A stretch of 64,000 nt of DNA. It comes from an uncultured Acidobacteriota bacterium. Its GTDB lineage: Bacteria; Acidobacteriota; CAIWXX01. Made by a program: the position numbers and the translations under genes. Location of the stretch: assembly GCA_903916735.1 (NCBI GenBank), contig CAIWXX010000024.1, positions 1-64,000 of the forward strand, in the 5' to 3' direction. Below the pieces are notes generated by a model that was not told where the DNA came from, searched no databases, and saw nothing but the letters and a program-made list of their open reading frames with translations. This document shows, one piece after another, positions 39,543 to 41,427 of the stretch (the stretch's first letter is position 1; each line of letters begins with the position of its first letter).

Positions 39543-40697
39543 TTATGATGCCGCTTCCAGCCTGACATCGACTTCTCGCCGTGTCTCCCCATTCCGCAAG
39601 ATTCCCAGATGCACGACATCGCCGGGCTTGAAGCGTTCCAGACTGTTCATCAAATCGCCCGAATCAACGGTCTTCTGTCCATTGACAGACTGGATCACAT
39701 CGCCGAGGATCAGCGAACCGTCGATATCTCGTCGCGTCCCACGTAAGCCGGCCTGTTCTGCAGCCGATCCTTGTTCGACGTTGACAATGAGTGCGCCTTC
39801 GAGCCCCAGTCGTTGTGTGATGCGATCGTCGGCAAGGGCGATACCGATGTGAGGCCGCACAATCCGCCCATGGCGTATGAGTTGCGGCACGAACTGGCTA
39901 ACCGTATCGACCGGTACGGCGAATCCGATGCCTGCATAAGACCCGGTGGTGCTGGCGATCGCTGCGTTGATCCCGATCAGCCGGCCGGCGCTGTCCAGGA
40001 GAGGCCCGCCGGAGTTGCCCGGGTTGATCGCTGCATCTGTTTGGATGACGCCGTCGATCTTACGATTGTCTGCAGCCGGGATCGTCCTTCCAAGAGCACT
40101 GACGATACCGGTTGTGAGTGTCTGGTCGAGGCCGAACGGATTGCCGATTGCGTAAACCCTCTGGCCGACCTGCAGATCTTTGCTTGTGCCGAGAATGATC
40201 GGCTGGAGCTTATCGGGCGTGGCTGGAATCCAGAGCACAGCCAGATCCTTTTCTGGGGCGGCGCCGATCAGCGTGGCCTTCCAGTCAGACTGGTCCGCCA
40301 GCGTGACACGAATGGAGTCTGCATCCTGGATGACGTGGAAGTTCGTGACGATATGACCGTCGGTATCCCAGATGAATCCGGAGCCTGTACCCTGAGTGTC
40401 TTCCGTTATATCCCATAGGAATTGCTGGCGAGTGATCGATGTGATGTAGGCGACAGACGGGCTGCAGCGCCGGAAGAGCTCAATGGTGGACTTTTCATCC
40501 TCCGCCAGATCCCCGCGTGCTGTGACTGTGCGAGATTGAACCGCAGGCGGGGTCGAGGGTTGTGATGATGGCCGGAATGGCCAGCCATCTCCTTTTGACC
40601 ACCACTGAAAAATCACATACCCAAGCAGCATCCCGAACAGGATGGGCCAGAGGAGAGAGGAACGGCGAGAATGGAGACGGGGGTTGTCATGATTCAT
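39543..40697 (-). CDS. HtrA/DegP-type serine protease with one PDZ domain
   Basis: 384 residues. One N-terminal membrane helix (about 14-32, LLWPILFGMLLGYVIFQWW) anchors the protein to the inner membrane, as in DegS. The catalytic triad is seen in HIVTNFHVIQDA (His), APEKDLAVLWI (Asp) and DAAINPGNSGGPLLDSAG (Ser). A PDZ domain covers about 285-375 (VEQGSAAEQAGLRG, SVNGQKTVDSGDLMNSL). One PDZ domain and an anchor fit the DegS-like group, which starts stress-response cascades, or a simple quality-control protease. It follows the peroxiredoxin gene on the same strand. Confidence 0.92.
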   Translation of the reverse strand: MNHDNPRLHSRRSSLLWPILFGMLLGYVIFQWWSKGDGWPFRPSSQPSTPPAVQSRTVTARGDLAEDEKSTIELFRRCSPSVAYITSITRQQFLWDITEDTQGTGSGFIWDTDGHIVTNFHVIQDADSIRVTLADQSDWKATLIGAAPEKDLAVLWIPATPDKLQPIILGTSKDLQVGQRVYAIGNPFGLDQTLTTGIVSALGRTIPAADNRKIDGVIQTDAAINPGNSGGPLLDSAGRLIGINAAIASTTGSYAGIGFAVPVDTVSQFVPQLIRHGRIVRPHIGIALADDRITQRLGLEGALIVNVEQGSAAEQAGLRGTRRDIDGSLILGDVIQSVNGQKTVDSGDLMNSLERFKPGDVVHLGILRNGETRREVDVRLEAAS

Positions 40698-40812: not shown

Positions 40813-41427
40813 TTATTGATTCAGAGCCTCGTGCACTCGTCCAACCATGGCAGCCGTCGGTATGAGTGTCTTGTCTCCTTCATCTTTCCATTTGGAAGGA
40901 CAGGCTTCATTTTTCTTTCGAGAGAGGTAAATGTTGGCCTTCAGTTTCCGGATCAGCTCTTCGATATTGCGGCCGAGGTTGTAATAATTGATCTCTGAAT
41001 TGAGAAGCAATCCCTCGGGGCTGATCAGGAATGTACCCCTCAATGCCAGTCCGGACATTCCGTCATAGACACCGAAGAGGCGGCTGAGGTGGCCGGTCGG
41101 ATCGGCGCCCATGGGATAGGTCACATCATGCAGTTGTTTTTCATGGCGTTGCCATGCGAGATGCACAAATTTGGTATCCGTGCTCACCGTAATGAGTTCG
41201 GCGCCGAGCTTCTTCATTCTGTCATACTGCTCTGCCAGAGCAGCAAATTCGGTCGCTCAAACGAATGTGAAGTCAGCAGGGTAGAAGAAAAGAATGGTCC
41301 ATTTGTTCTGAGTCTTCAGGCTCTGCAATTCGATCTTGCCGAAATCGCCCTTCGTTGGATCAAAGATGTCAATCTCGAAATCCGGCACCTTTTTTCCGAT
41401 TTCGATGCCATCGCTGTTACCTGCCAT
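40813..41427 (-). CDS. Selenocysteine-containing peroxiredoxin (AhpC/PrxU-like); TGA read as Sec
   Basis: 204 residues from ATG at 41427, with AAGGAGG 8 nt upstream. The frame runs GIEIGKKVPDFEIDIFDPTK and later WTILFFYPADFTFV, meets TGA at 41257-41259 (residue 57) and continues ATEFAALAEQYDRMKKLGAE. In AhpC/Prx1 proteins this position in PxxxTxxC is the peroxidatic cysteine. The conserved Pro50 and Thr54 are present, the Arg in LRGTFLI is present and the resolving cysteine is in EACPSKW (about residue 176). A 7-bp hairpin starts 13 nt after the TGA. Selenocysteine variants of this enzyme are known in anaerobes. It reduces peroxides. A mutated cysteine codon is the alternative. Confidence 0.85.
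41227..41243 (-). promoter_or_regulatory. Bacterial SECIS-like hairpin inside the peroxiredoxin gene
   Basis: Read on the minus strand, CTGCTCT GGC AGAGCAG is a perfect 7-bp stem with a GGC loop. It starts 13 nt after the in-frame TGA, close to the spacing in E. coli fdhF. Guanines open the loop, as bacterial SECIS elements need. Confidence 0.65.

Follow-up and report, generated by a model that had tools for sequence, protein, structure and literature searches.

The frame at the locus

The window, the whole stretch of 64,000 nucleotides analysed here, belongs to a contig of an uncultured Acidobacteriota bacterium. On its minus strand lies a frame of 204 codons (40813–41427) that runs from an ATG at 41427–41425, with a strong ribosome site, AGGAGGA, a few bases 5′ of it, to a stop codon at 40815–40813. 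Its sole in-frame TGA is codon 57 (41259–41257). The joined protein matches the Pfam AhpC-TSA domain (PF00578, E=8e-34) over residues 10–140, which spans both sides of the TGA, and can be aligned end to end with AhpC proteins of both the Sec and the Cys type. The site reads FFYPADFTFV-TGA-ATEF, so that the TGA falls exactly at the peroxidatic cysteine of PxxxTxxC and, if read as selenocysteine (Sec), gives PxxxTxxU with P50, T54 and U57. Cys176 (40900–40902, in EACPSKW) follows position 57 by 119 residues. The spacing is that of C46 to C165 in Salmonella AhpC, as befits the resolving cysteine of a typical 2-Cys peroxiredoxin of the AhpC/Prx1 group. Standard gene calling, which takes the TGA as a stop, leaves a truncated ORF of 134 amino acids (40813–41217). 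A preliminary description, made from the letters alone, had already read an AhpC-like frame on both sides of the TGA, the ribosome site, the resolving cysteine near the end and the 134-codon remnant; all of these hold, on the minus strand.

An AlphaFold2 model built with Cys in place of Sec (mean pLDDT 76) matches AhpC and the plant and human 2-Cys peroxiredoxins with E values of 1e-18 to 1e-20, that to Salmonella AhpC being about 1e-19. Just downstream on the same strand lies a gene for a PDZ-containing, HtrA/DegP-like serine protease (39543–40697, minus strand). Neither this gene nor the FolK gene that also adjoins in the window is a conserved neighbor of the related peroxiredoxins, and a comparison of gene neighborhoods across the clade found nothing common except the peroxiredoxin gene itself. 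Promoter and terminator scans gave results close to those of shuffled sequence. No tRNA and no Rfam match was found within the 64-kb window.

Selenocysteine machinery and the genetic code

The preliminary description implied a selenocysteine system elsewhere in the genome and proposed a search for selA, selB, selD and selC. The source genome is a fragmented draft (5.37 Mb in 183 contigs, 98.7% complete), and it contains all four: a tRNA-Sec whose anticodon is UCA (76 bits, contig C92), SelB (328 bits, C164), SelA (491 bits, C78) and SelD (318 bits, C55). SelD is by its sequence a selenoprotein too, codon 24 being an in-frame TGA (GUASKLGP; L018:1462-2532, G000:C55), and the genome thus has at least one further selenoprotein gene. 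A distant PrxQ/Bcp-like gene of the same genome, with a weak NCBIfam match (L073:1414-1977; G000:C117:63145-63621), likewise has an active-site TGA, in FTGGUTAEC, and a hairpin downstream of it.

In-frame TGA in at least three genes (the peroxiredoxin, SelD and L073) could also mean that the codon has been reassigned to sense in this organism, as Trp, Gly or Cys. This is extremely improbable. TGA terminates 13 of the 39 long ORFs of the window, and the code is therefore standard; the UCA-anticodon tRNA that was found is tRNA-Sec; and in all three genes the TGA occupies a redox-active position.

The SECIS hairpin and its codons

A hairpin at 41226–41244 of the minus strand is a strong candidate for a bacterial SECIS element. 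It starts 12 nt beyond the UGA, or 15 bases on if counted from the codon's first base, and has an 8-bp stem with G-U as the outermost pair and a GGC loop (41236–41234) that begins 20 nt after the UGA. The published bSECIS model requires a loop of 3–9 nt, a stem of 4–16 bp, G at loop positions 1 and 2, a distance of 16–37 nt from the UGA and an MFE of at most −7.5 kcal/mol (PMC13188914). Scoring of the hairpin had been proposed in the preliminary description, and the window copy satisfies the model throughout, with a 3 nt loop, 8 bp, GG, 20 nt and −15.2 kcal/mol. The folding energy of this copy by itself does not stand out: of 1000 synonymous re-encodings, 112 were as low. Folding energy is weak evidence for single sequences, and the case for the hairpin rests therefore on conservation.

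A scan of GTDB genomes with the peroxiredoxin gave 49 loci, 43 of which cover the TGA site. The peroxidatic codon is TGA in 41 of these 43 relatives, which are 55–77% identical and come from Acidobacteriota, Nitrospirota, Rokubacteria, Methylomirabilota, Planctomycetota, Krumholzibacteriota, Binatia and Deltaproteobacteria. About 45 other species share both the TGA and a nearly letter-perfect RNA hairpin: the TGA genes carry GCTGCTCTGGCAGAGCAG at this place, a sequence that forms a perfect stem capped by a GGC loop. The stem varies only in its outermost pair, G-C or G-U, and in one double change; the loop reads GTC in three Planctomycetota genes (L059, L061 and L063). In a codon alignment of 50 TGA genes, 47 of them distinct, codons 62–67 of the hairpin are GCT GCT CTG GCA GAG CAG, each represented by one codon at 98–100%, while the most frequent codon at the remaining strongly conserved residues reaches 36–96%. 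These codons encode AALAEQ. Among the 1,536 possible encodings of this peptide, 4 fold into a perfect 7-bp Watson-Crick stem; just one of the 4 has G as the first loop base (a GG loop), and it is the one observed. Peptide and hairpin together leave zero synonymous freedom, and this explains the codon invariance. The SECIS thus appears to be locked letter for letter, with the AALAEQ peptide and the stem-loop constraining the same 18 bases.

A natural control is provided by L033, a relative from Thermodesulfovibrionales that has Cys (TGT) at the site. It keeps the AALAEQ peptide with the codons GCA GCA CTT GCA GAA CAG, and folding found no hairpin there (MFE −4.9 kcal/mol). A second control is L091, which encodes AALAER: here the changed codon CGG goes together with GCC on the opposite side of the stem, and a U-A pair becomes C-G. 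The weight of this compensatory change is limited, as it is a single gene with two TAG codons that may be decaying. The L091 gene (around 1483-2130) keeps the Sec TGA, has lost the resolving Cys, and has a very long, perfect hairpin of −37.9 kcal/mol; the two TAG codons are in frame. It may be a decaying gene, an assembly problem or a case of TAG recoding.

The same alignment bears on whether the window merely holds a broken or mis-sequenced cysteine gene, in which TGC or TGT is read as TGA. A single base change would suffice for this, and Cys forms do exist in two relatives, L033 and the Planctomycetota gene L057 (TGC). Against it stand 41 independent assemblies, drawn from several phyla, that all have the TGA, the near-invariant SECIS codons and the full Sec machinery in the genome. 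In practice the conservation refutes this explanation, which we give almost no chance of being right. Taken with the Pfam match, the TGA in 41 of 43 relatives and the near-invariant hairpin codons also indicate that the in-frame TGA within a joined AhpC frame is not chance.

The idea that the two Cys relatives had lost the Sec machinery was considered and rejected, since the L033 genome keeps SelA and SelB and the L057 genome has a tRNA-Sec; the change from Sec to Cys hence does not go hand in hand with loss of the machinery. The only tRNA-Sec-like gene of the L033 genome carries the anticodon GCA and resembles the selC* tRNA-Cys known from Nitrospirae; this draft assembly may lack a true tRNA-Sec. 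In a Thermodesulfovibrionales genome, a gene of this kind (L147:239-366, G297:C58) combines the anticodon GCA with a very long variable arm and lies upstream of a YeeE/YedE-like gene. It fits the selC* tRNA-Cys as well (PMC7609411).

Place among selenocysteine peroxiredoxins

Taken together, the frame, the TGA at the peroxidatic site, the Sec machinery, the conserved SECIS, the resolving Cys and the AhpC fold, all seen in the sequence, make it very probable that this is a working selenoprotein gene for a typical 2-Cys AhpC-type peroxiredoxin, in which Sec takes the place of the peroxidatic Cys while Cys serves as the resolving residue. Insertion of Sec in the cell and the peroxidase chemistry would follow by analogy with known families. 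SelB would bind the hairpin 12 nt past the UGA and bring the Sec-tRNA (UCA) to codon 57, where Sec would be inserted in place of termination. The Sec selenolate would then attack H2O2 or an organic hydroperoxide, Cys176 of the partner subunit would resolve the resulting selenenic acid, and the bond so formed would be reduced by thioredoxin together with its reductase, thioredoxin reductase. A search of the genome for AhpF gave nothing over the curated cut-off, the best match (246 bits) covering the thioredoxin-reductase half only. With no full AhpF found in the genome, thioredoxin is the likely reductant.

Compared with AhpC of Salmonella and E. coli, the clade shares the fold, the P-T-C(U)-R active site (Arg130 shows no variation among the aligned proteins) and the resolving Cys at +119, which is kept in 49 of its 50 genes. 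It differs in having Sec for Cys, in scoring 165–212 bits (189 for the window protein) against the AhpC model TIGR03137 with a cut-off of 272, and in the AhpF partner, which was not found in the genome of the window organism.

A selenocysteine peroxiredoxin, PrxU of the Eubacterium acidaminophilum type, was reportedly described by Soehling et al. in 2001. The preliminary description referred to PrxU for comparison. Its reading is supported on all main points; as to PrxU, the likeness stands in that the protein is by its sequence a Sec peroxiredoxin, but by the NCBI curated model it is not PrxU itself, and a neighboring clade is the better assignment. The window protein scores 175 bits against the PrxU model NF040737, below the cut-off of 270, and scores in the clade lie between 163 (L063) and 199 (L023). 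By comparison, a second TGA group in the same phylum, the PrxU genes, reaches 373 bits.

It could be argued that the clade is a divergent branch of the PrxU family proper. The two have in common the AhpC-type fold, Sec at the peroxidatic TxxU site and a SECIS at the same position just 3′ of the UGA; they are about 40–47% identical, and one common Sec clade uniting them is not rejected by the AU test (p=0.77). The scores given above speak against such a branch, as does a quick tree in which the clade and the PrxU group stand apart with support of 98 and 99. The SECIS sequences differ as well, being GCUGCUCUGGCAGAGCAG with the loop GGC in the clade and of the UCAGCGGUCGCUGA type with the loop GGUC in PrxU; the PrxU group of the phylum has a TCAGCGGTCGCTGA type with paired base changes. 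Inclusion in PrxU is accordingly judged unlikely. Two separate origins of Sec, one in the clade and one in PrxU, were also considered and are not established, given that the AU test does not reject one clade, with the p value above. The residue at the resolving position differs too: Cys in the 49 clade genes mentioned above, Thr in 14 of the 24 PrxU genes of the phylum (L103, L106, L109, L111, L112 and L117-L135), where EATPSGW stands for EACPSGW. With Thr at this position, these PrxU proteins may work with Sec alone.

Sec peroxiredoxins (Prx, TxxU) are a standard class in selenoproteome surveys, one that lumps several peroxiredoxin subfamilies (PMC1794560, PMC13188914). With its TxxU motif and bacterial SECIS the window gene would count in this class, although the clade is not singled out in either survey. 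A literature search that covered few subscription journals found no description of the clade. This kind of protein has been known since 2001, yet the branch seems to be unnamed. We lean, by a little, towards an undescribed subfamily of Sec peroxiredoxins, separate from PrxU and present in several phyla, whose SECIS and protein evolve as one unit; if so, a change in the peptide needs a paired base change. The codon-locked SECIS is the point of added interest. Gene calling with TGA as a stop yields a piece that lacks the active site, and the protein stays below the cut-off of every NCBIfam model. A gene that many uncultured bacteria are predicted to use in peroxide defence is therefore easy to overlook.

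Within the window's phylum, of which 297 genomes were covered, the close TGA form (at least 59% identity) occurs in 8 others. This patchy distribution and the mixing of phyla in the tree suggest that the gene of the clade may have been transferred horizontally. Matches in IMG/VR were of Cys-type AhpC only, and every plasmid match was less than 60% identical. Of 20 TGA-form genomes that were sampled, 18 contain a tRNA-Sec (66–81 bits); tRNA matches at or below about 55 bits, of which there are several per genome, are most likely other long-arm tRNAs. Within the phylum, presence of tRNA-Sec does not cleanly separate the TGA form from the Cys form, as many Cys-form genomes also have it. Two distinct tRNA-Sec genes, of 75 and 72 bits, occur together in a single draft genome of the phylum (L148 and L149; G257:C681 and C789); they are either two copies or the sign of a mixed bin.

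In some relatives the gene lies near others that, with families judged by eye, encode a Fur/PerR-type regulator (L026, L027, L033, L043 and L053) or a desulfoferrodoxin-like protein and an FprA-type flavoprotein (L024, L025, L028 and L029). Such neighbors would fit a part in the defence against oxygen stress.
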